A stretch of 64,000 nucleotides of DNA from Corynespora cassiicola (Eukaryota; Ascomycota; Dothideomycetes; Pleosporales; Corynesporascaceae). The position numbers and the translations under genes were made by a program. Below are positions 34,610-62,870 of the stretch, piece by piece. The notes below the pieces were generated by a model. That model was not told the DNA's origin. It made no database searches and saw only the letters and a list, made by a program, of their open reading frames with translations. Each line of letters opens with the position of its first letter. Positions within the stretch are counted from its first letter, which is position 1. Where the stretch lies: the NCBI GenBank assembly GCA_022059125.1, contig JAEUWY010000004.1:620001-684000 (forward strand), in the 5' to 3' direction.

Positions 34610-36718
34610 TCAGCGCATCTTGAAATCGAACTGCTTGAGATCTTGACTCTCCCATGCCTCCTTTTCGATCCTTCCCAAAGCTTTCCTTGTGATCCAGTCA
34701 TCGATTCTTTCCACGAGTAAAATATTATAAAATTCATAAACATCTTCCTTTTGGGGCCTCTCATTAAGGTTCCACTCTTCCATCATCCAAGATTCATCTC
34801 GATTGTTTTGCGCTTGGCCTCTAGATATGGCCACCAGTTCACATATCTGGCTTGCTGGCGAGCTCTCTGATACCATTTGATTAAGTCTCAAAATCCCAGC
34901 CCAGGAACCTTTCGTATCCCTCACAACGACCGTCATACAGCTGCAAAATCTTGGGCTTGGAATAGTCTCGCTGATGAGAAACTGTGCGCAAGTACTTTGG
35001 AACGCTATATACGGTGTAAAGGAATGCGGGGGAGGATCCTGGGAGCGCATAGGAAGAGGCCATGCGAAGTGCCTCAAAGGTGCCTTCGGATGAGCAAAAT
35101 AGGTATCGTCCAAGTCATCATGTCTTTGTCGGAACCAGCCATCAGGGAGCTCGCCATTATCAAGACTCCTAAACTTCCTCCATTCATGGTAATCATTTGA
35201 AATTGGGGTGGGGTTTCCCTCGAAATCAATAGAGAACCACTTTACTAGCGGATATGTAGTAAATGAAGTTGACCTAGATCTTGGCTCCCAATAGTCATTG
35301 CCCACATGGTAAAAGTTTTGGCTGAGGGTTCCATGCCAACCAATCCAGGACCATGAAGGAAGGTAGTCTTTGTTCCTTGTTTGCGAGTCATTAGAACGTC
35401 TTTTCATGGGAGAAGCAGGCTGCCAAAGCATCGCAATGTCAAAGAAAAATTGAGGTAGCCCATAGCAGAACCCCCCTGGGAATGAATCGTCGAGTCCTGT
35501 TTCTATACCCCGTATGGCAGGAAGCCTGTCGCTCTCAAAGCTCAGATTTCGTCGGTTGTACTTCCATATCAATTGTGCCCACTGATCTATATCAGGCCAT
35601 GGGGAGGGAACGAAGAGATCGTAAGAGCCTTCATTGGGAGATATCCTCTTCGTTCCATGCGGATCTCCAGCAAGATCCTCTTTCCAAACATTGAGCTGAC
35701 AACGCCAGGTCACAGAATTATCTGCAAAAATAAGTGCGCGACGCGACATTATTTGCTCCTGGAATGTCCACCCTCTTGTGTTCCATAATGAGGACCGTTC
35801 GGCCTGCAAGACATTATTCAAAAGCACGCAAGTAGCCCCCGGGAAGTCGAGAATTTTTTGTGTAAGTCTACGAGGTCTGGAGCCGCCACCTACTCCCCGC
35901 AGGCCGTACTGTGAGTCTTCCCCTCCGGCTGCAATTATGGTGCAGTATGAATGCGCGTATATAGCACCCATCATGCCAATTTGCTTGGCCTTGTGGACAT
36001 AATCATTTTGGATGATGCACAGCCTGTCCACCCATAAATATCTTGCATTAAGGCGTTTCACTAGACGTAACGAATCTTTGATTGTGTCTGGCAAATTGAG
36101 TTCCCTCTTTTCCAGTGATAGCGCTCCCTTTTGTCTGTGCAAGTCGACGTTCTCCACAGTGGTTTCCAATGCAGCTCCTGGTGCGTCCTTGCCCCAGACG
36201 TACGATAAAGCAAAATAGGGTGTCGTTCCAGGTGCCGAGACTAAGCATTCTTCTTCAACATCAATAAGAAATAGCTGGTCTGCTGGTAAAAGGCCGGCTT
36301 GAATCGAATGGCCTTTGCAGGCGGTTCCATGCGATTCGTCACAATATTGTAGCCAGGCTTTGGTTTGCTCCATATCGATCCAGTGTTCATCAAGGACCAT
36401 CGCGGCACTTCGAGACACATGCTGAGGATTTGTCTCGGCAAGTTCGAGAAACAGATACGCATCCTCATCGTCGCGTATCTGGAGATCACTGTCAGGTGTC
36501 CGTTGGTTAAGGAGATTTATCGGCATTTGAGGGTCCGGTTCCTCCGATGTGCCTTCGAATCGACACGAGATGATGGTTAAGCAGGTTGGGCAAGCTTGCG
36601 CGCTTCTCTGGAGGTCTCGGTATGTGCAAATCTCCATTTCTTCCATCTCGCTGGCCATAGCCGCAATTAGGGATGCGATCGTCGCGCAAACGCGACAGCC
36701 TTGTGCCATATCCGACAT
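34610..36718 (-). CDS. Heterokaryon-incompatibility (HET) domain protein
   Basis: Intronless, 702 aa from MSDMAQGCRVCATIA; an in-frame ATG at 36778 adds 20 residues and cannot be excluded. An N-terminal Cys-containing region (GCRVC ... CPTC) precedes the HET domain (about residues 165-330). Its signatures are YFALSYVWGKD, LPDTIKDSLRLVKRLNARYLWVDRLCIIQND (shown as LPDTIKDSLRLV and YLWVDRLCIIQND), IGMMGAIYAHSYCTIIAAGG, and SLWNTRGWTFQEQIMSRRAL. HET proteins cause cell death on fusion with incompatible strains, or act in general innate-like signalling. The C-terminal half has no recognised partner domain such as NACHT or WD repeats. It starts about 590 bp from the divergent anoctamin gene. Confidence 0.92.
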   Translation of the reverse strand: MSDMAQGCRVCATIASLIAAMASEMEEMEICTYRDLQRSAQACPTCLTIISCRFEGTSEEPDPQMPINLLNQRTPDSDLQIRDDEDAYLFLELAETNPQHVSRSAAMVLDEHWIDMEQTKAWLQYCDESHGTACKGHSIQAGLLPADQLFLIDVEEECLVSAPGTTPYFALSYVWGKDAPGAALETTVENVDLHRQKGALSLEKRELNLPDTIKDSLRLVKRLNARYLWVDRLCIIQNDYVHKAKQIGMMGAIYAHSYCTIIAAGGEDSQYGLRGVGGGSRPRRLTQKILDFPGATCVLLNNVLQAERSSLWNTRGWTFQEQIMSRRALIFADNSVTWRCQLNVWKEDLAGDPHGTKRISPNEGSYDLFVPSPWPDIDQWAQLIWKYNRRNLSFESDRLPAIRGIETGLDDSFPGGFCYGLPQFFFDIAMLWQPASPMKRRSNDSQTRNKDYLPSWSWIGWHGTLSQNFYHVGNDYWEPRSRSTSFTTYPLVKWFSIDFEGNPTPISNDYHEWRKFRSLDNGELPDGWFRQRHDDLDDTYFAHPKAPLRHFAWPLPMRSQDPPPHSFTPYIAFQSTCAQFLISETIPSPRFCSCMTVVVRDTKGSWAGILRLNQMVSESSPASQICELVAISRGQAQNNRDESWMMEEWNLNERPQKEDVYEFYNILLVERIDDWITRKALGRIEKEAWESQDLKQFDFKMR

Positions 36719-37311
36719 GATGCCACAGAATGACACTCCAATATGGATCCTACCCCTGTGACCAAAGGCGATAGTCAAGTAATGCAGGACGTCAGATTAT
36801 GACACGAACCTTGTGAGCTGTCAGTGGTCCCAAGGATTCGCCGATAACAGGTTGGCTTCAGCGGCTCCTTTTAGGTTTAGCCCACGGCGAAACTTCAGCC
36901 TCCAGGGGCTGTCTTTGGATATCTGGCGTTCCAAGCGGGGCCGAGTTCCACTTTGGCATCCAGAGCAAATGGCGAAGATGCAGCATTTTTGGTCAATCTG
37001 CATCTCCGACAATAGTTCACTGGGTCTGATCAACATTCTTCGCAAAGCTTGTCTACACAAATAGGTTCACAGCGGTACCAATGTCACGGATCGCACGGCA
37101 CCCAAGGCACTCGGACCCACCGCCGAGCCATCCGGAAACGAAACTCAGCTGAGCGAGTCCACGTAAGCGCCACAGTTGGCCAGAAATATGAACGGCACTC
37201 CCCCCGTCAGGTCACTTTTTCCTTGCTTTCCCCGCACGACTGCGCCGCAGAGCCTCTTGAGACCCTATTTGCACGTGATAGCACGTCATCGCGACTGACA
37301 AACTGGACCCT
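36719..37311. promoter_or_regulatory. Shared divergent region, HET / anoctamin genes
   Basis: The 593 bp separate the two divergent starts. No other gene is supported. Confidence 0.4.
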
Positions 37312-39629
37312 ATGGTGATGCATTTGAAGAGAGTCGGTACAGACTGGATTGAAGATTCTGCAACGAAGGATATACTATACCACGACAAGTATGTTGTGGT
37401 GTACGATTTCAGCAATGTCGGTGAGCAATTGCCTTGTCGACCCCTGGCATGGGCCTGCGGCTGATGGCGCGCAGACAATGACACAGCTGTCCACGAGTTC
37501 ACGAAGCTCTGCCAGGACCTTTCCTCGGTAGGACTGCATACTGAAGTACGCGCTGGCTATGATCAAACACTTCTGGTGTTTGTGCAGGCTCCCCGTGAGC
37601 TGCTGGGAAACACAGTCTATCGCTCGCGGTAGGGACGGCCCCTAGCTCAGACACCGATCCAACAACTGACCCAACGTTCAGGGTAAAAGACTGGCTATAT
37701 GGAATCACCAAAAAACATCCCGGCGGCACCAAGGACACCGTTGTACAAGGCAACTTCGAGGCAGAGGACCTCCTGTCCATGTACCACCTGGTAAATTGGC
37801 GGAAGGAGCTCGGTGGTGCAGGAATCACGCCAGGCTACGGAAAATGGGAGAACGTCACCTCCATATTCCCGCTACACAACCATCCCATCAACAACCAACT
37901 GCTCTCTCATTTGAGCAGACGAATCTTTTTGACTGCGGATGACCTGGACCAGATCCGCAACCTCTGGGGCGCCAAAGTCGCATTCTACTTTGCCTTCATT
38001 CAGACATACTTTCAGTTCCTGGCGTTCCCATGCGTTGTAGGCATTTTTGCCTGGCTATTTCTTAACAAGTACTCACTCGCTTTTGCGCTCATCATCGGAG
38101 TATGGTGTACCGTATTCCTAGAGTACTGGAAGATTCAAGAGATTGATCTTGCCATTCGATGGGACGTGCGTGGCGTGGGAAGCCTCAAGGTCAACAGACC
38201 ACAGTTTCAATTCGAGCGAGAGTACGTCGATTCGGCAGGCCGAAATATTCAGTACTTTCCCAAGTGGAAGAGGATCGCCCGCCAGCTTCTGGTGATTCCG
38301 TTTGTCGTTGTCAGCATCCTCTTGTTGGGCATCATCATCACATCGGTGTTTACTATCGAGACAATCATCAGTGAAGCATACGAGGGCCCATACAAGTTCT
38401 ATCTTGTACGGCTCCCATCCACATATATCATAGTTTCAATGCTAATCAATCTCCAGGAATATCTCCCCACGATCATCCTCGCTGTCCTCTTACCGCATAT
38501 CTCCAATATTCTTGAGGAAGTCGCACAGAAGATGACCGACTATGAGAACCACCGCACAGCCGACAACTACGAAATGTCACTGACTCAGAAAATCTTCGTC
38601 CTCAATTCGGTGACAAACTATCTCCCAATCTTGCTGACAGCCTTTGTCTACGTTCCCTTCGGCGACGTTGTGATCCCCAGACTCCAGCGCCTCGTCCACA
38701 AACTTTTCTCCCTCCCCTCCAAATCCCCCAAATTCTCCGCCGACCCCGACCGCCTCCGCAACGAAGTCATCGCCCTGACCGTAACCGGCCAAGTCCAATC
38801 CGCCCTCGAAGAACTCGCCTACCCCTACCTCAAAACCCGCGCCAAAGAATGGTGGCGCAACTACCAAGCCAGCCGCACAAACGGTCACCCGGGCGCCATC
38901 CCCTTTGTGCACGACGACCCCTACGAAGGGCGCTTTCTGAAGCGCGCCCGCAAGCAGGCCATGGCCGCCCCCTATGACGTCCAAGAAGACATCTCGGAAA
39001 TGGTCATCCAGTTTGGATACCTGGCGCTCTTCTCGCCCGTCTGGCCCCTCATCCCCATCGGCTTCTTCATCAACAATTGGATCGAGCTGCGCTCCGACTT
39101 CCTCAAGATTTGCATCGAGCACCAGCGCCCCGCGCCCACGCGCGCAGACGGCATCGGGCCGTGGGTCGCTAGCTTGGAGACGCTCACGTGGCTTGGGAGT
39201 ATCTCTACGGCGGCGATTGTGCACATGTTTGGGGGACATCAACTCATGCAGTTCACGTCTAGTATTGGGATTGGGAAGTGGTGTTCACTGCCGCTCACGA
39301 TCTTCCTCTCTGAGCATATATTCCTGGGGTTTAGGGCGGCGGTGAGGTTTGCGCTGCAGCGCGTGGGGTCGAAGCAGATTCGCAAGGAGAGATCAGAAAG
39401 ATATGCGGAGCGGAAGAAGTTTCTGGATGAGTTGGAGGAAAGCAAGGAGAGGAAGGGGCTGTTGGGGCTGCCGGTTGAGGAGCGCGAGCGTAGGAAGAGT
39501 GTGAGGGTCACTGGTATAGATTTGTTCTGGACGAAGCAGGCGGAAGATGGAGCGTCTGAGCAAGCGGGCGTGGGATTGATTAGGGCGTTGAAGAGCGAAA
39601 AGGAGGACAGGCCACCCAAAGTTGATTAG
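37312..39629 (+). CDS. Anoctamin/TMEM16-like membrane protein, Ist2 type
   Basis: Exons 37312-37420, 37475-37628 and 37682-39629 (introns 54 and 53 bp) give 736 aa. The cytosolic N-terminal domain begins YHDKYVVVYDFSNVG. Splicing restores VYRSRVKDWLYGIT, a conserved anoctamin-type segment. The transmembrane part starts with VAFYFAFIQTYFQFLAFP and has EYWKIQEIDLAIRWDVRGV, a signature of fungal Ist2-like proteins, then several long helices to about residue 640. A basic C-terminal tail follows (KQIRKERSERYAERKKF). Yeast Ist2 tethers cortical ER to the plasma membrane; other fungal TMEM16 members are lipid scramblases. Which activity this has is not readable by eye. GC-rich codon use changes midway (about 38700-39100), without loss of frame. 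Confidence 0.93.
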
Positions 39630-42382: not shown

Positions 42383-43404
42383 TCATACAGTGAATTTGGT
42401 CTTGTTCTCTTCGGCGAAGCTCTCTGCAATCTCCTTGACCTTTGCTTCTCCAAGCTCCTCGAAGATATCGAACCCCCATCTTGCTTGGACATTGAATCTC
42501 TTGTGTCTCTCCAAGCCAGTCAAATCTTCGAAAGCATCCTTGGGTAGTTCCTTGACCTGCAGGTTGCTCTTGATCCTATGAGGAGTCACGCTCTTCGGCA
42601 GGACAACAGTGCCTCTTTGAATACCCCAGGAAGCGAGCAGTTGTCCACCGTCTAGCCCCAGTCGCTGGCCGACTACACCAACCAGCGGGTCGTCAACAGT
42701 CCTGGGCTCTCCAGTCTGGTTATTTCCCAATGGCGAGTATGCCTCGATGAGGATGTTTTTGGATTTGCAAAAGTCGAAGAGCTCTGGCTGCTGCAGATAT
42801 GGGTGGGCCTCGACTTGATTCACCGCCGGTATGACCTTTGTCTTGCTAAGCAGGTCGTTGATTCGGTTGATGGTAAAGTTGGAGACACCAATGGCGCGGA
42901 CCTTGCCCGTCTGGAGAAGCTTCTCCATGGCAGTATACGTGACTGCGGGATCTATATCTGCCAGATCGAAGACGCCGCTATCTCGAAGTGGAAACCACTT
43001 GCCGGTGGCACCGTTGAAAGCTCTAGGCGACGTTAGCAAAGCCCTCTGGAGTTCAGCTTTATTACTTACACAGGCCAGTGCATGAGGAACAGATCAACAT
43101 AGTCCGTTCCCAGATCCTTTAACGTCTTGTCAAGAGCAGCTTCAACATCTTCCGGCGCGTGTTTGGTGTTCCACAGCTTTCCCGTGATGAAAATGTCTGA
43201 TCTGGGTACGCCACTCTTACGAATTCCCTCGCCGACCTCAGCTTCGTTGCGGTAGATGGCTGCGCAGTCAATGTGTCGGTATCCAGCCTTGAGAGCTGTC
43301 TCAACGGCCCGCTCTACTTCATTGGGAGCAGCTTGCCACGTTCCGAATCCCACAGCGGGGATTTGAGCTCCTGTGTTGAGCGTAAAATGCGATGGGAGCG
43401 GCAT
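42383..43404 (-). CDS. Aldo/keto reductase, NADPH-dependent
   Basis: Exons 43070-43404 and 42383-43022 (47-bp intron, donor GTAAGT, acceptor CCTAG) give 324 aa. The N-terminus [11 protein letters not shown] and the signature [20 protein letters not shown] provide the catalytic Asp and Tyr. Lys lies in [11 protein letters not shown] and His in DLFLMHWPV, at the exon boundary. The second signature is [21 protein letters not shown], and the cofactor-binding end reads [18 protein letters not shown], with the Lys-Ser-x-x-x-x-Arg that binds the NADPH 2'-phosphate. It resembles fungal glycerol/aldehyde reductases. Its promoter is shared with the Zn2Cys6 regulator, so it may belong to the cluster at 42.4-53.3 kb and reduce an aldehyde made by the reductase enzyme at 49607. 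That link is inference. Confidence 0.93.
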
Positions 43405-44157
43405 CTCGGTTTTCTAATGTGAATAAGTTTTTGAAGGAGCTGTGCAGCGATATCTGGGAGAGGACGGCGGTTGTAGGGCCATTTTGACAATGAAATCTCC
43501 CATTCATAACTGCGGAACTGCTGTTGATTGTTCGGAATCGGAATGACTGGACGGAAAAGCAACAGGGCGGATATGTATGTGCGGGTGCTGCTAGCGTCTT
43601 CGTTTTTGTAACCCGAGGTTAAGCCGCATGAACTTCGGCGTGGAGAGGACGGATATCCGTAGGCGAGAGATGTTCGGCAAACGTACTGCGAAAATTCACA
43701 TTGAGCGTTGATAATACACGTCGTGAGAAAAATATGAAAAAGATATGAACTGTCCTTCGCCACTATGAGCGGGCTTTCTGCAGGTCCCAACTGGCGGGGG
43801 GTAGTCAGGGGCAGGGCCGAATGGCGGGTTAGCCGGATCCTGTCTCCAAGTCCATCTGCAAGCCTGGATGAATTCATCACTCCTCCATCTCCACAGCAGT
43901 AAGTTCTGTTTACTCTTTCGCGCTTGTGAAAATATGCCAAATCCTTCCGATCGCCTACAATGACCCATTCCCCATGTTCAACTCAGCTCGAAATGCCTGA
44001 GTCCCTCAGCCGAAGTCATTGCCCGAGTAACTAGTGGACCCATTTTTCCCCGCATTCTGCAATACTTAGCCCATCGAAATCCGTCCCGTATAATCCGACC
44101 TGTTCTCTCTTTTTCGCCTCCACGTCTTATCATCGAATCCGGCCGACACAGTGCAAC
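43405..44157. promoter_or_regulatory. Shared divergent promoter, AKR / Zn2Cys6 regulator
   Basis: The 753 bp separate the aldo/keto reductase and transcription-factor start codons. Zn2Cys6 proteins often bind paired CGG triplets; several CGG/CCG triplets occur (for example near 43462, 43514, 43787, 43847 and 44090), but I cannot assign a site. Confidence 0.4.
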
Positions 44158-46788
44158 ATGAACATCGATCTGGCTCCACACCCAACCAGTAGTGTGTCGC
44201 ACTCTACCGGATCGCCTGCATCCCCACACACACCCACTGTCAACGGCAATCCCGCGGAACAACTCCTTCCGCCTCTCCTAAACAAGACGCCCAGGAAACG
44301 CAGTCTCTCTGCTTCGGATGATACCCACCATCGGAAACGTAAGGTGACGAGAGCCTGTGATACTTGCAAGGCGAAAAAGGCAAAATGCTCGGGCACTCAG
44401 CCTTGCGAGACATGTCAGAGAAGAGGCATCCAATGTCTGTATGAGGCACGTTGTACGTGGCACCTAGTATTGTGATTAGTTTCGTCGATTCAAGCAACTT
44501 GTCCCAAGCGTGACCATTGTCTTGGTACCTAGCCCAAGAATTGTGCTGACCTGGAATCCTCTCTTTAAGACTCCCGGGGGAAACCACCTACACCTCCTCC
44601 GCGGAACTATGCTGCAGAATTCCCTGTGCGAGATCCAAATATCGGGCTCGCTCAAGCTCGGACCTCTCCCGAAGAAGCGTCTCTGGACCATCCCGATCAC
44701 GGAGCCTTAGTGTCTATCAGTGCAACACATTATCCTATACCCATCACGGCACCTTATCATTCACCCATTCCCCACATTCAGCACCAGGGATCAGACAACT
44801 TTCATCCTTTACCTAGCCCGAGGCATGATGATCCAGTGAGCAGCATAAACATGACTGCACTTGTGGTAACGCCTCAATCTTCAACTCAGGAGAACCGACA
44901 GGATGTGACTCAACTACGAAGGACTGAACCTACTCAGGAGGCGCCATCACGCGGTTCTCCAGAGCTTGAAGTAGCTGGCCAATACTCTGACTCTACCTCG
45001 GGCCTTTCTTTCCTCCATCGGGCATGGCGTCGTTTGTCCAACAATCAGAACAGCCAACTTATGAACGGAGCCCTGGGTAGCAGCGAGGAAAACCAACTGT
45101 TGGCAAATGCGGGCGACAAACCATTTCAAGTCCAAGGAAATATACAGATTCCGGCTTTTCCTAAGGCACGAGAGCTCATGACGTTGTACTTTGATGTTTG
45201 TATTGCTACGTATCGTTTACTACATAGGCCCTCCGTCGAGAAGTGGCTAGAGACTGTTGTTCAAAATTCACAATCCGAGCGGACCCCGCTATGGCAAGGC
45301 GTCACCCGACCCCGAGCAGCCATTGTCCTCACTGTTCTCTCTGTGGCCACCTTTCATGAAGGCAAGGCTAGGGGAGAGACGATAGAGGCCAATGCCTTTT
45401 CTCCCACCAACGAACAGTATGCTTTGCGGCGGTCGGATGAGCTTTTTTGCGAAGCAATGCGCCTCACCGATGCCGAAACAGGCTTCCCAGAGCTTGAATC
45501 GGCACAGGTGCGTCTAGTTCAGGTACTTTATCTACTGATGTCTTCGCGGATGAACCAAGCTTGGTATACATTTGGGCACGCATTGCAGATTATATCAGCT
45601 TTGGGATTACACAGGCGCGAGGACCGAAAACGGCCATCTCATAGTCGCAACTATATTGAAGAGCAGTGTAGGAAGAGGACTTTTTGGGTTGCCTACACAC
45701 TTGACAAGTACCTCGGCGTCATCTTTGGCCGTCCAAGACACTACCACGACGATGACATTGATCAAGATTTCCCTGATGCTGTCAATGACGAGGACATGAC
45801 ATCGAACGGCCCAATAGATCAAGACACTGGCGATTGTCACATCAAGTCTCTAATTTGCCACGCAAAGTAAGTCATCCTGTCGTGGGCTTTTGTATACGCT
45901 AGTGCTAAGAAAACCAGACTGGCACAGATTGCAGAGAAAATATCGCGCGAAGTCTACTCAATAAAGCCGGTCCCTGACCACGAACGTATCGCCGCTTCCC
46001 ATCGCCTCGCAGGAGAACTGCGTCAATGGCGCGCCGCATTGCCGCCCTTTTTGGGTGTCGTCAATCCATCAAGTCTCATCGAGAGTTTTCGACGACAGGC
46101 AACGGCCTTGAAACTCGCATACTCGCATGCCGTCATGCTGGCACATCGGCCGTTTCTACTCAAGAACGTGACGAAAGATCGTATCGAAATACAAGAGCTA
46201 GCAAAAGAAAACATCAACGAATGCATTGTGGCAGCACAGTCTGTGCTTGAGAGCGTGGATCGCATGGCTCGCGATGGTCGCCTCTTCCATGCATTTTGGT
46301 GGACACACTATGTTTGCTTTTGCGCGCTAGTTTGTGTATATGTCTGGGCCATTCAACAGAGCAACGACTCCCAAGGAGACGACCGAAGCTATGCCAAGAT
46401 TTTCAACCAGGCCGAGCGCTGCCTTACCCATCTTGCGCAAGCCACACAATCAAACACGCCGAGTCGTCGCTATAGCATAATCTTACAAGAATTGCGTGCC
46501 GAAGCAAAGAGGAAAACAGCAAGGAGACCAGTTGATTCTACACATTTCGGGGCGAGCGAAACTCAAGGGGGCCATCTTGCACCGCCACCTCAGTCTATCA
46601 CTGGCACCAGTCCCAATATCGATGAATGGGAGCCAATGTTTGGGAGTCCGATAGACAACTCTATGTTTCCCATCATGTTGGACAATTGGCAGACTACTGA
46701 TTGGCTGGACCTGGACTCTTCTGCTTTCCAGCACTTCTCATCCCTAGATACTGGCTCTTTTACATGGATGGGTGAGGTACCAAGATAG
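44158..46788 (+). CDS. Zn2Cys6 transcription factor with fungal-specific TF domain
   Basis: Exons 44158-44452, 44570-45866 and 45918-46788 (introns 117 and 51 bp) give 820 aa. The zinc cluster is ACDTCKAKKAKCSGTQPCET followed by CQRRGIQC (C-x2-C-x6-C-x5-C-x2-C-x6-C, about residues 66-94), preceded by a basic HHRKRKVTR. The first splice gives the familiar linker ARYSRGKPPTPPP. The middle-homology (Fungal_trans, PF04082) domain lies about 240-560, with RLVQVLYLLMSSRMNQAWYT, ALQIISALGLHRRED and RKRTFWVAYTLDKYLGVIFG. The C-terminus is acidic with aromatic residues (DNWQTTDWLDLDSSAF), a likely activation region. It lies between the AKR and the MFS/NRPS-like pair, which suggests a pathway-specific regulator. 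Confidence 0.94.
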
Positions 46789-47345: not shown

Positions 47346-49056
47346 TTAAAGAGTGTAACGGAAGAGAGGCGATTTATCGCCCATTTCCAGCAACTGCTCA
47401 TCGGTCCACTTCTCTCGAACCTCTTCTTCAGTCATGCGGGCCTTCCTCTTGTTGCCCCACTTGTACGACAACTCGAGGAGAAAGGCTACGATGAAGGCGC
47501 TTCCACCAAAAGCACAAGAGAGACCAAATCCGGTGTAGTACTTGGGTTTCTCGGATTCCAGGTACATGTAAGAGCCAACAACACCTCCAATGTTGCCAAC
47601 ACAAATGTTGAAAGCAACACCGATGGCGCGGCGCGAGGATGGTGCAATATTGTTCGCTGCCCAAGAGCTTCCTGCTGGCTGGATCGGGTAGATACCAATG
47701 CAGGTCAGGATGATAGCGAAGAAAGTCGGACCGATATTGTCGGCCAACGCACCGTCGAACGCGATGACGACGGCATAGCCAATGGCAATGAAAGCCATTG
47801 GGATAGCAACGAATGGTAGACGCCAGAAGAATCGATCAGAGAGGCGTGCAAAGACGATGGAAGAGATGGCTCCTGCGACGTAGGGTGGGACTGTCATGAG
47901 CTGGGCGTTGGTGTTGCTGAACCCCATGGCCTTGGTGATGGTGGGCAGGGTGAACTTGGTGCCGTAAGAACAAGCCGAGCAAGCCAAGAGAATATAGGCC
48001 TGCATGTACAAGCGCCAATTGCAGAGAACCATCTTCAGGTCGTTCCAACGAGCAGTCGGCTTCTCCTCGGCCAATCGGCCACCGTCCTTGATGAAACGTT
48101 GAAGCTCCAGGAAGCGGATCTCCTCTGGATCAAGCCATCTGGTGCTCAGTCTGGGGGAGTCGATCAAAAGGAAGAAGCATGAAACTCCAAGAAGGACAGT
48201 TACAATGCCCTCTAGAAGGAAGATCCACCTCCAGCCTTCGTAACCACCAACGCCTATAGAGGGTCAGATATGATGAGGAATACCAGTTGAGTCAGCTCAC
48301 CATCCATCTCTGCAATCGCAGCAGCAAGGAGACCGGAGAATGCGCCACTGAGGGCGGATGCGCAGTAGAAATAAGAGATGCGCGTAGCCAAGTCCTTTGG
48401 CATATACCAATAGGAGCATAGATAGACGGCACCCGGGAAAAATCCAGCTCTGAGAAGATACATTAGCGATGTCACAGGTGCGAAGGTACTATACATACTC
48501 GAAAACACCGAGAAGAATTCTGGTTACTAGGAGTCCAGCAAAGTTCTTTACAACTCCCATCATAGTCATCACAATGCCCCATATCACAATCAGAATACCA
48601 AGGTAGACTGACGGTCTCTCAAACTTCTTGAGAAGCATGTTCGAAGGGACTTCGAGAAGAACATATGGGACGAAGAAAACTGATAGAACAACGTTCCATT
48701 GCACTCCGGTAAGATTTAGGTCTTCAACAAGTCCTTCAATCTTTGCGTTTCCGATATTGGCACGGTCGATGTGGGAAATCAAGTACAAGATTGCCAACAT
48801 AGGTACGAGACGAACATCGACCTAATGCATATTTAGCCACTAGATCGAAATGAAGCTGTAGTTCGGAGCTAACCTTATGGATCACCTTCTTCCTCCTTTC
48901 TGGACTGAAGTTGATGTAGAAATCGGCATCATCAGCTTCGAGACCGAGAACATGGAAGTTGTCAATTTGGACAACGCGGTTCGGCTTGACTTCATCAATA
49001 GAATCAGACTTCTCGTCCACAAACTGGATCTCCGATTTCTCAAGAGTGGCAGCCAT
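47346..49056 (-). CDS. MFS transporter, anion:cation symporter (Dal5/Tna1) family
   Basis: Exons 48874-49056, 48499-48821, 48301-48449 and 47346-48253 (introns 47-52 bp) give 520 aa. A cytosolic N-terminus leads to the family signature RLVPMLAILYLISHIDRANI plus GNAKIEGL, then LLEVPSNMLLKKFERPSVYL, RILLGVFEAGFFPGAVYL across the second splice, YWYMPKDLATRISYF, and GYEGWRWIFLLEG. About twelve membrane helices are expected. The C-terminal half includes FARLSDRFFWR and GIYPIQPAGSSWAANNIAPS. Dal5/Tna1-type permeases import carboxylates, vitamins and allantoate. It is head to head with the NRPS-like gene, with 550 bp between starts. Transport of the pathway's acid substrate or product is the natural inference. 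Confidence 0.94.
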
Positions 49057-49606: not shown

Positions 49607-52600
49607 ATGGCTCCCGCACAGGTGGCCATTCCGGCCATTGTTTCTCAACCCTCGCTCAAAGTCCCTGTGACACAAAGCATAACAGAGGCTACCGAACCAC
49701 TCGATGAGGCATCCATTTGCACGGTCGACGGACTTGTGCGGCATCGTGCTCGGACCAATCCCCACGCCATAGTAGTCTCATATCCAAGTTCTGGCATTGA
49801 GTTTGTCGACTACTCAATGCAGCAGTTGGATGTGTTTGCATACAGAGTCGCTCGTCATTACCAAGCTTTTATCCCAATACGAACAAGCTCATCAATCAAG
49901 CCGACCACCGTCGCGTTGCTTGGGCCAAGCAATCTCGAGTATGCAGTCACTATGCTTGCGCTTACCAAGCTTGGCCATACGGTTCTTTTTCTTTCGACGC
50001 GAATTTCGCAACTGGCGATCGAGTCGCTGATTGAGACTACCGGTGCAACGCATTTGCTTGCCGACCCCCGATACGTGAAGGCTGGTTCGGATGCTCTTGC
50101 AAGCAAGCCGCACGTGAAACTCAACGAGATTGCTGGAAGGTCTATCTTTGAATTTCCAGTTGAGGTCTATGCGGACACCCGAATGGATTACCAGCTGGAC
50201 CCCGAGATCGAAAAACTTAACAATGTCTACATCATTCACTCAAGTGGTACGAATATCTAGTCCTGATTCAATCTCTATATGTGCTAATACCGCCTAGGGT
50301 CTACCGGACTGCCCAAGCCCATTTATCAATTCCAAAAGAGTGCGATCGCCAACTATGCCATCAGCATGGATATGAAGGCATTCATTACTCTTCCCCTATA
50401 CCATAACCACGGAATCTGCAACTTTTTCCGTGCTATCCACTCCTGCAAATCCATCCACCTTTATAATGCGGACCTCCCTCTCACGCAACAATACCTTACC
50501 AACATCCTGCGCAAACACAACTTCGAAATCTTCTATGGCGTTCCTTATGCTCTCAAGCTACTGGCAGAGACGGAAGAAGGAATTGCATTGCTCAAGCAGC
50601 TGAAGATTGTCATGTACGGTGGCAGTGCATGTCCCGACACATTAGGCGATTTGCTTGTCGAGAACGGCATCAACCTCGTCGGCCACTACGGTGCCACAGA
50701 GGTTGGCCAGCTGATGACTTCTTTCCGTCCTGCCGGTGACAAGGCCTGGAACTACGTCCGCGAGAGTGAAAAGCTGAAGCCCTTTTTGAAGTGGGTGCCT
50801 CAGGGCCCCAACCTCTATGAATGCACTGTCACAGATGGCTGGCCATCCAAAGTCCAGTCGAATCGACCCGACGGAAGCTATGCGACCAAGGATCTTTTTG
50901 AACCCCACCCAACGATTCCTGGAGCTTGGAAATACATTGCGCGGTTGGATGATACGATTGTCTTGGTCAACGGAGAAAAGTTCAATCCCGTCATGATGGA
51001 AGGCAAGGTTCGGTCGCACAAGGCGGTCACCGAGACCATCGTGTTCGGCAACAGTCGGCCATATCTCGGTATTCTCATTGTTCCCTCCCCTGCTATGGAG
51101 GGGAAAACGGAGGATCAGATTGTTGATCACGTCTTTCCGGTCATTGAAGAAGCCAATCACACCGCCGAAGCTTATGCTCGCATCTCCAGGGATATGGTCA
51201 AGATCCTGCCCCATGATTGCCAGTTCCCACGTACCGACAAGGGGAGCATTATCCGACAGGCTTTCTACAAGCAGTTTGCCAAGGAAATCAACGACGCGTA
51301 CGATCTGGTTGCCACTTCTGGTGGGGAGCTGAAGGCCTTTGATCTTCCAGAGATGGAGGATTTTGTCCGTGGCGCGTTGATCAAGTCTATCCCCGAAGCG
51401 AAGGATATCGAGAGGACAGCCGATTTTTTCTCGGTTGGCCTTGATTCTCTCCAGTCGATCCAGATGCGCACTGAGATTCTAAAGAATGTGGATATTGGAG
51501 ATAACAAGCTTGGCCAGAATGTTGTCTTTGAGTATCCATCCATTTCCGGGCTCAGTGCTTACCTCTGCGGTCTCCGGACGGGCCAGACGCAAGAAGCAAC
51601 GGCGATTGAAGACAAGATGAAGGATCTCATTGAAAAATACGGCGACTTTACACCCAGACCTACAAATCAGTCGATCGTGGTGACTGGCGCAACTGGGTCT
51701 CTTGGTGCTCACGTCGTGGCCCAACTTACTGCTCGCCCTGACATTTCGACCGTATATGCTCTTGTGCGAGCCCGCAACGATGAAGAAGCAAGCCGTCGTG
51801 TGACAAAGTCTCTCATTCATCGCAAGCTTTACCACACTCTTCCACTTTCCTCTCGATCCAAGATTGTGGCCATTTCCTCCAATCTTTCTGATGCGAAACT
51901 CGGTCTTTCGGATGAGGCCTACTCCCGGATCACCTCGAGCCTTGGAAGTGTCATTCATTGCGCTTGGTCCGTTAATTTCAACATTGGTCTGTCATCATTT
52001 GAGAAAGACTGCATTTCTGGAGTTCGGCATCTCCTAGACTTGTGCCATGCTGTACCTTCTACTCAACCGGCTTCATTCGACTTTTGTTCATCCGTCAGCA
52101 CCGTGTCCAGGTGCCCAAGCACCGAAGCACCAGAGCGCTTGCCTGAGCTCGAATGGGCCCAGAACATGGGATATTCTCAGTCAAAGCTTGTCGCCGAAAA
52201 TCTCTGCGTAAAAGCAGCAAAAGCAACAGGCATCCGCGCCAGGGTGCTACGCGTCGGCCAAATCGTTGCAGACACTATGCATGGCGTCTGGAATGCCACC
52301 GAGGGCATCCCCCTCCAGATGCAAACTGCACTCACCGTCGGCGCTCTTCCCAAGCTCCAGGAAACTCCATCCTGGACGCCTGTCGATGTCGTCGCAAAGA
52401 CCATTTCCGAAATCGCGCTCTCCGATGCAGGAGCCATCATCGCGAACGTCACCAACGCGAAGACGTTCGATTATACCAATGACCTCCTCCCCGCACTGCG
52501 AAATTCAGGCCTCAAGTTCGACGAGGTCGAGCCAAAAGAATGGGTCAGGAGGCTCAAGGCCAGCAACCAGGACCCCGTGGCCAACCCGCCCATCAAGCTC

Positions 52601-53323
52601 CTCGACTTCTTCGCCAGCAAGTACGACAAGGATAGCTTTGGCCCCTCGCGAACGTTCGAAACGGCCACCGCGCGCAAATTCTCTCCAGCCCTTGAGAACG
52701 CTCCGGGCCTGGATCAAGACTTTGTCAATAAATTTGTGAGCCAGTTCCTATCGTCGGCGTGGAAGCAGCCTGAGGAGCAAAAGGCAAGGCCCGGCAAGCA
52801 AGTCATTGTCGTAGCTGGTCCATGCGGAAGCGGGAAGACGACCGTTGCTGAGGCGCTCGGCAAGTCGCTCAGCGCGCCGTTCATCGAAGGCGATTTGCTG
52901 CACACGTTCGATGCTGTGACGAGAATGGCGAGTGGCACTGCGCTCTTGGACTCGGATCGCGGGCCGTGGCTCGAGCGCCTGAAGAGGCGGGCCCTGGAGA
53001 CGATCGAGGAACTTGGATATGACAAGGTCATCCTTTCTTGCTCGGCGCTTAAGAAGGTATATCGTGATCAGCTGCGCGGAATGAGGAGCGCGGATGTAGA
53101 GGTGGTGTTTGTCGATTTACAGGTTGCGAAGGAGGAGCTTGTGAGGAGGATGCAGGGGAGGGCTGGTCATTACATGCCTGCCGATTTGGTGGATAGCCAG
53201 ATCGATATTTATGAGCAGCCTGGAACGGAAGAAGTTGACATTTTACCTGTTGATAGCGGGAAAGATATTGGCCAAGTCATCCGGGATGTCGAACAGTTGA
53301 TCCAGGATGCGGCGGATTTGTAA
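49607..53323 (+). CDS. NRPS-like A-T-R reductase fused to a gluconokinase-like kinase
   Basis: Exons 49607-50246 and 50298-53323 (51-bp intron) give 1,221 aa; the ATG has a strong context (cgccATGG). Domains: adenylation (about 30-560) with HSSGSTGLPKPI (A3 loop, joined by the splice), HYGATEVGQ (A5), ARLDDTIVLVNGEKF (A8) and PRTDKGSIIRQA (A10 Lys); thiolation with FFSVGLDSLQSIQM (Ser about 597); and reductase (about 665-920) with VVTGATGSLGAHVV and GYSQSK. There is no condensation domain. From about 1045 a separate kinase domain begins: VVAGPCGSGKTT (Walker A), FIEGDLLHTFDAV, RMASG, DSDRGPWLERL, ILSCSALKKVYRDQLRG and GRAGHYMPADLVDSQ, the pattern of GntK-type gluconokinases. A-T-R enzymes reduce a carboxylic acid to an aldehyde or alcohol. 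The kinase would phosphorylate a hydroxylated substrate or product (inference). The fusion sits within one exon, so it is not a splice artefact. Confidence 0.95.
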
Positions 53324-61567: not shown

Positions 61568-62870
61568 ATGGTCCAGGTACGTACCTATAAAATTTCCCCA
61601 AACCAGTAGTTTATTTGTATTTTCTGCCCCGGTTGCTGGGGCCACTGCTGCAGCCAGGCACACGTACTGACTATGACGTCACCCAGCTCGAATACTCGGT
61701 CGAGAAGCCGCTGAACCGGGAGCCCGAGCTCGAGAAGCTGGTCTCGAGGTACGTACCCCGGAATTGCCCCTAAAAAGAGCCCCATCAGACTCGAGACTAT
61801 GCTAATCGATATTGGACACATCCAGTTTCATCACAGAGGACTGCTACGACCGCAACCACGGCCCCATCCCCCACCTCGACCCAAACACCCACCAAGTCTC
61901 CGTCTACGGCCTCGTTAAAAAGGAACTCTCCCTCAGCATCGCCGACCTCAAGTCCCTCCCCCAACACAATGTAATCTGCGCCCTCCAATGCGCCGGCAAC
62001 CGCCGCCACACGATGCGCACCAAGCTCAAAGAAGTCTCGGGAATCGACTGGTTCGACGGCGCCGTCATGAACTGCGCCTGGCGCGGCCCCCTCCTCAAGG
62101 ACGTGCTCGAGAAATCCGGCATCGACCTCGACAAGCAAAAGTGGAAGGAAGCCCACGTCGCCTTTGCCTGCTTCCAGACCCCGACCCAGGACGACGAGTG
62201 GTACGGCGCCAGCATCCCGCTGGCCCGCGCCATGGATCCGGACGCGAGCATCTTGCTCGCCCTCGAGATGAATGGCCGTCCCTTGCCGCCGAATCATGGG
62301 GCTCCGGTGCGTGTCGTCACGCCAGGCATTGCGGGCGCGCGGAGTGTGAAGTGGCTTGACAGGATTACCGTCCAGCTCAAGGAGAGCTGCAACTTTTACC
62401 AGCAGCGCGACTACAAGATCCTTCCTCCAGAGGCCGACTGCGCAGAGAAGGCAAAGATGTACTGGGACAAGGTCGATTCGCTGCTCGACATGCCCATCAA
62501 CAGCGTCATCGGCGTGCCCAAGGCAAACTCGACCGTCCGCCGCGACGAGAACGGCGCCATCGAGGTTAGGGGCTATGCCCTGCCTTCCGGTTCCGATGGC
62601 CCCATCACCCGCGTCGAGGTCTCGGTCGACGACGGCAAGACGTGGAAGGATGCCGAGTTGTTGGGCGCGCGGGAGGGGGAGCAGGCGGAGCTCAAGTGGG
62701 CGTGGTGTCTCTGGCGGGCAGACATCAGGATCGAGGCGGGCGCGAAGAAGCGCATCTTGAGCAGGGCGACAGATAAGAGTGGGAGTACGCAGAAGGCATG
62801 CCCCCAGTGGAATTTCAGGGGCGTGGCGTATAACGGCTACGGAGAGGTGACGGGGCTAGAGGTCATCTGA
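61568..62870 (+). CDS. Sulfite-oxidase-family molybdopterin enzyme
   Basis: Exons 61568-61576, 61687-61748 and 61826-62870 (introns 110 and 77 bp) give 371 aa. The first exon is only nine bases (Met-Val-Gln), a microexon inferred from ATG-GTC-CAG followed by GTACGT. The molybdopterin domain contains LNREPELEKLVSRF at the second splice, then NHGPIPHLDPNTHQV, and the molybdenum-ligand Cys in ICALQCAGNRRHTM (about residue 79). VSGIDWFDGAVMNCAWRG, LALEMNGRPLPPNHGAPVRV and GARSVKWLDRITV follow. The dimerisation domain (about 230-371) has VRGYALPSGSDGPITRVEVS. There is no cytochrome b5 or mitochondrial leader, as in plant-type and many fungal sulfite oxidases. Probable reaction: sulfite to sulfate. 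Convergent with ubc7. Confidence 0.92.

Follow-up and report, generated by a model that had tools for sequence, protein, structure and literature searches.

Does a single fungal polypeptide activate a carboxylic acid, reduce it and phosphorylate it? The question is raised by a two-exon gene on the forward strand (49607-53323) of the 64,000-nucleotide stretch of Corynespora cassiicola DNA analysed here (the window; the assembly containing it is 44.35 Mb). The gene encodes a 1,221-residue adenylation-thiolation-reductase (A-T-R) protein with a C-terminal GntK-type kinase. Exon 1 (49607..50246) begins at the ATG at 49607 and supplies 213 codons plus one base, encoding the N-terminal part of the A domain. 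A GT..AG intron of 51 nt (50247..50297) separates it from exon 2 (50298..53323), which encodes the rest of A, then T, R and the kinase, and ends with the stop codon at 53321-53323. The protein sequence flanking the intron agrees with that of P0001, an uncharacterised database entry ('male sterility protein' / gluconokinase) from C. cassiicola Philippines, which also has 1,221 aa and the same domains and is 99% identical over the searched part.

An earlier note on this DNA had argued from the extent of exon 2 that no splice choice creates the fusion. The argument stands: the exon is 3,026 bp long, as claimed, and is one unbroken open frame through R and the kinase to the stop. Some database entries are cut or lack the kinase, and at least P0100 and P0108 resemble gene-model variants of P0101, as two genes or a gene-model artefact would have it. 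However, because R and the kinase share a single open frame and the A-T-R-kinase order is shared by more than 100 related proteins (101 of the 125 compared), two separate genes are very unlikely. With the order repeated in the 99% identical public protein as well, we reject both the two-gene and the splice-artefact readings.

A Pfam and NCBIfam domain search of both exons bore out the A-T-R plus kinase architecture that the note had proposed, and all four domains carry intact motif sets. The Pfam AMP-binding profile matched the exon 1 part with 29.0 bits, slightly below its cut-off of 29.9, and the exon 2 part (50300..50743) with 54.7 bits. The core motifs of the A domain are present (A3, SSGSTG.PK; D431/D432; and Lys-528, the A10-type lysine, in the C-terminal subdomain AMP-binding_C_3 at 50948..51304, 150.6 bits). 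The thiolation domain (PP-binding, 51395..51565, 28.3 bits) has its phosphopantetheine (Ppant) serine, Ser-597, in the motif GLDSL. The thioester reductase (NAD_binding_4 / Thioester-redct, 51680..52762, 143.8 bits for NAD_binding_4) extends to Trp-1035 and contains GATGSLGAH and the Y839-x3-K843 pair; TIGR01746 scored 183.4 bits, below its whole-protein cut-off of 213.35. The sequence features of the A-T-R class were found, namely the A core motifs, the Ppant serine and a reductase with an NADPH motif and Y-x3-K.

The kinase occupies residues 1046-1221 (52793..53320), with the Walker A motif GPCGSGKTT at 52817-52843, an acceptor-side H-T-F-D-A motif ending in Ala-1086 and a RAGHYM lid motif. 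The note's GntK assignment was supported by profile, predicted fold and catalytic motifs. TIGR01313, the NCBIfam model for GntK/IdnK-type gluconokinases, matched residues about 1050-1214 with 154.7 bits against a curated cut-off of 113.75, far beyond chance and within the region (about 1045-1221) where the note had placed the kinase. Among Pfam models AAA_33 scored 39.2 bits and SKI 18.5 bits, below its cut-off of 22.1. The two E. coli gluconokinase equivalog models gave 110 and 107 bits, far below their cut-offs of 304 and 265. A structural model computed with an alignment of 64 sequences reached a pLDDT of 94 and replaced one made without an alignment (pLDDT 44); its nearest solved folds are gluconate kinases. 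The TIGR01313 score and these fold matches led us to reject a mere P-loop look-alike.

The catalytic residues of the kinase are retained both in 124 fused kinases and in 66 stand-alone kinases, the latter being matches to the fused kinase of which only two are known to be fungal. In the fused set the Walker lysine, the G-D pair and Arg-1136 are each present in all 124 and His-1171 in 119. The acceptor side is different. Position 1086 is Ala in 103 of 124 fused kinases and Asn in 58 of 66 stand-alone ones; the proline of the H-P pair is rare in the fused kinases, and the HPxxN motif that is usual in the stand-alone kinases compared is absent from the window protein. We infer that position 1086 contacts the acceptor, and the Asn-to-Ala replacement together with the rarity of the proline would suggest a changed acceptor. 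As a literature search for gluconate-binding residues from a structure paper yielded none, this acceptor-side argument is drawn entirely from conservation. Where it is retained, then, the kinase looks catalytic, with one acceptor-side position altered. The same genome has a separate two-exon gluconokinase gene (G000:C5:654519-655036) with the canonical motif HPPANIEKM. Other fusions of GntK-like kinases were also seen, to 6-phosphogluconate dehydrogenase domains in the unnamed proteins P0052 and P0053 and, in P0051, to a PF09861 domain, which we take to be the N-terminal domain of lactate racemase.

Public databases hold many A-T-R-kinase fusions, often named 'gluconokinase' or 'NRPS-like'. 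In a search for relatives, 7,992 candidates were scored and 1,283 were found; the best 120 of these 1,283 were used, so that rarer or more distant members are uncounted, including the published Aspergillus and Phialocephala proteins, which are not among the best 120. Names among the matches listed include Colletotrichum, Fusarium, Trichoderma, Verticillium, Cordyceps, Diaporthe and others, and members of the Pleosporales. The family is about 60% identical across many moulds. Together with the matches of a further search there were 151 listed proteins, which with the window protein gave 152 rows, of which 27 under 960 aa were excluded. A survey of the remaining 125 near-full-length rows for the same C-terminal kinase found it intact in 101, decayed in 7, absent in 12, partial in 3 and cut in 2. 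The 'absent' calls depend on database gene models: those for the Boeremia proteins P0060 and P0061 may be wrong, since the kinase is present in another Boeremia protein, P0020. Two further proteins, P0054 and P0056, end within the kinase, and P0150, classed as lacking it, has an unrelated C terminus.

The seven decayed kinases (P0111, from Clonostachys, P0118, P0127, P0138, P0132, P0142 and P0055) sit on A-T-R proteins with an intact core. They keep the kinase scaffold and have lost Walker A, including its lysine, and usually the lid motif; the HYM stretch is missing in at least four (P0055, P0111, P0127 and P0132). On the tree, the decayed state requires a minimum of five changes, each of the five being forced by well-supported branches; change counts by themselves cannot separate gain from loss. 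Decayed copies also diverge faster than intact ones. The kinases of one decayed pair are 74% identical, against 80.5-95.4% in 16 intact pairs of like A-T-R identity, and those of another are 58% identical, against 69.6-90.1% in 114 such pairs. From these two comparable pairs, the intact kinases appear to be under selection.

A kinase tree was built with 30 of the 124 fused kinases, hand-picked to span the A-T-R tree. A branch with support 85 (not starred) holds all 30 together, set apart from 65 other stand-alone kinases and three other fusions, and they adjoin the two stand-alone gluconokinases known to be fungal (support 90). Distances between A-T-R parts and between kinases are correlated (r = 0.86, n = 101), a value that none of 2000 permutations reached. 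Among the bacterial and archaeal genomes scanned, a single close relative turned up, in a metagenome-assembled Polyangiaceae genome (L021:4034-6775), a rare case of a fungal enzyme with a bacterial relative. Its gene has no intron and is flanked by bacterial genes. The encoded A-T-R is 43% identical to the window protein in the best segment, over residues 102-1036, and unlike the fungal fusions it has no kinase, stopping at AWK where the fungal kinase linker starts. It falls outside the fungal rows on the tree (the fungi group apart from it with support 86); this rooting is tentative because the bacterial protein is on a long branch, and long branches were flagged by the tree program. What is new here is that the fused kinases group beside fungal gluconokinases and start at the point where the bacterial relative without a kinase ends. 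The simplest reading of these sequences is that the kinase was captured a single time, early in the fungal family, and then lost in some lineages.

The A-T-R catalytic residues Ser-597, Lys-528, Tyr-839 and Lys-843 are each conserved in 125 of 125 proteins, whether the kinase is present or not. The residues of the acid pocket, located by aligning the protein with MenE and 4-chlorobenzoate ligase, are almost as constant: Asn-250 in 124, His-251 in 121, Asn-255 in 120, His-343 in 119 (with 5 gaps) and Gln-351 in 124. The bacterial relative keeps Asn-250, His-251, His-343 and Gln-351 (in LYHNHG and HYGATEVGQL) but has Ser at position 255. The full set is found in no paralogue of the same genome that was readable at these positions (four loci fully and one partly, of nine fetched). 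The pocket appears unusually polar. Since it is constant across the family and mostly kept in the bacterial relative, the family's substrate is most likely a single kind of small polar acid, which it probably activated already before the kinase was gained. Repeated kinase decay beside nearly unvarying A-T-R residues and pocket points the same way, in that the A-T-R seems to act on a single, conserved polar acid and not to need the kinase.

Three neighbouring genes are possible partners. An MFS transporter (47346..49056, reverse strand) lies head-to-head with the A-T-R gene; its best NCBIfam match is TIGR00893, the D-galactonate transporter family, at about 73 bits per exon for its two exons, below the cut-off of 395, and a comparison with solved structures gave no match at E ≤ 0.01. 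A transcription factor (44035..46788, forward strand) has a Zn2Cys6-type cluster, recognised by eye, and a Fungal_trans domain. An aldo/keto reductase of the aldose/aldehyde reductase type (42383..43413, reverse strand) has 2,5-didehydrogluconate reductases as its best, sub-threshold NCBIfam matches, and plant AKR4 enzymes and mammalian aldehyde reductases as its nearest solved structures. These genes suit a sugar-acid theme, though such genes are common in fungi. A single CGG-N11-CCG upstream of the gene was not used, being no more than chance could give. Further away lie a HET-domain protein (34613-36796), an anoctamin/TMEM16-type protein (37599-39626) and a sulfite-oxidase-type molybdopterin oxidoreductase with a Mo-co dimerisation domain (61806-62867); the ORFs tested at 53.4-61.7 kb gave no Pfam match.

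Our main reading, to which we assign a probability of roughly 0.5, is that the protein is bifunctional, a member of an old family of fungal enzymes in which the A-T-R acts on a small polar acid and the kinase on the same metabolite. The A domain would use ATP to activate a small polar carboxylic acid of hydroxy or sugar type, which would be loaded onto the Ppant arm of T; R would then reduce the thioester with NADPH, and the product would leave as an aldehyde or alcohol. The kinase, derived from a single capture of a fungal gluconokinase, would use ATP to phosphorylate the same metabolite at a hydroxyl, most likely one of the acid used by the A-T-R or of its reduced product. That one protein might activate, reduce and phosphorylate a hydroxy acid fits the polar pocket. 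We infer the polar acid substrate, the timing of phosphorylation and the product. As the A-T-R stays intact without the kinase, action after or beside reduction is favoured, and phosphorylation of the reduced product, as a side or trapping step, would be likelier than an obligatory step before activation.

The order could instead be reversed: the kinase would phosphorylate a sugar or hydroxy acid, and the A-T-R would turn the resulting phospho-acid into a phospho-aldehyde, as in a route from an aldonate to an aldose phosphate. That the acid itself is phosphorylated is a serious rival because the known gluconokinase demands a carboxylate: in the available portion of PMC4045858, the human enzyme is described as strict, accepting one compound of 122, gluconate, and its lactone. 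By analogy this strictness would fit phosphorylation of an acid better than that of an aldehyde or alcohol, and nearly all GntK motifs are retained. Yet the pocket and catalytic residues are unchanged where the kinase is lost or absent, and are mostly the same in the bacterial relative; the kinase-less proteins would require a separate kinase as a stand-in, and the changes at 1086 and in the H-P pair suggest another acceptor. Kinase decay or absence beside an unchanged A-T-R, together with the kinase-less bacterial protein, argue against an obligatory role for the kinase in the A-T-R reaction, and we consider the reversed order unlikely. The kinase may also act on an unrelated metabolite. An ordinary gluconokinase merely tethered to the A-T-R, supplying 6-phosphogluconate to central metabolism, would account for motifs near those of GntK, and GntK is fused elsewhere too, as to 6-phosphogluconate dehydrogenase. 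We hold this to be improbable, given the separate gluconokinase with a canonical motif in the genome, the long co-inheritance of A-T-R and kinase and the changed acceptor-side position. Quite improbable, finally, is a structural or regulatory domain, such as a dimerisation or ATP-sensing module, whose catalysis is dispensable. Such a role would suit the 7 of 125 proteins that keep the scaffold without Walker A and the dimeric state given for human gluconokinase (PMC4045858, available portion), but the catalytic residues are tightly conserved in the 101 intact kinases, and in the two comparable pairs the decayed copies diverge faster.

In a bolder form of the main reading, a single polypeptide would convert a free sugar acid or hydroxy acid into a phosphorylated aldehyde or polyol, the gluconokinase having been captured once, re-tuned to the enzyme's own product and later dropped repeatedly where the phosphate was no longer needed. 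We put this forward tentatively, as possible though rather doubtful. If true, phosphorylating reduction in one polypeptide would be chemistry that our literature search found described for no A-T-R enzyme. Among fungal enzymes, A-T-Rs with additional domains form a common orphan class; here an invariant polar pocket and natural kinase-plus, kinase-dead and kinase-less versions provide a ready comparison set, whose chemistry is testable with a small acid panel and could uncover a conserved fungal metabolite.

The domain order, whose novelty the note had raised, is not new: it is printed in two genome papers and shared by many database proteins, so a never-seen architecture was rejected. The available part of PMC4073137 gives 'A-T-R-gntK' (Table 2) for A. 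flavus AFLA_054270, of 1,251 aa, with counterparts in A. oryzae (AO090009000033) and A. parasiticus. It assigns the gene to SMURF cluster 18, which also contains a transcription factor, reports no expression under the conditions tested (RPKM 0.0-0.3) and gives no function; a literature search on the AFLA and AO gene names found this paper only. Table 5 of PMC5148876 lists 'A-T-R-Kinase' for Phialocephala subalpina PAC_02202, of 1,227 aa, with no function in the entry. By these printed descriptions the window protein, with the same order and a similar length, fits this type of about 1,220-1,250 aa. The note's further statement that it knew of no characterised enzyme with this order agrees with our literature search, which found none, though a report in subscription papers is possible. 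'A-T-R-K' in PMC4274970 and PMC5381763 denotes A-T-R-KR, not a kinase, and PMC3554632 has one NPS10 table entry, while its main text mentions no kinase. E. coli GntK (1KNQ and related structures) and S. meliloti gluconokinase (3T61) are 30-36% identical to the fused kinase but stand alone, with HPxxN in place of H(S/T)xxA. The A-T-R core is common to the fungal adenylate-forming reductases and ChNPS10 (PMC2823734, in the part available), the main text of whose paper does not contain the word 'kinase'. We rejected membership in the ChNPS10 group (A-T-R-SDR): ChNPS10 has a dehydrogenase as its second C-terminal domain, whereas the window protein ends in a kinase.
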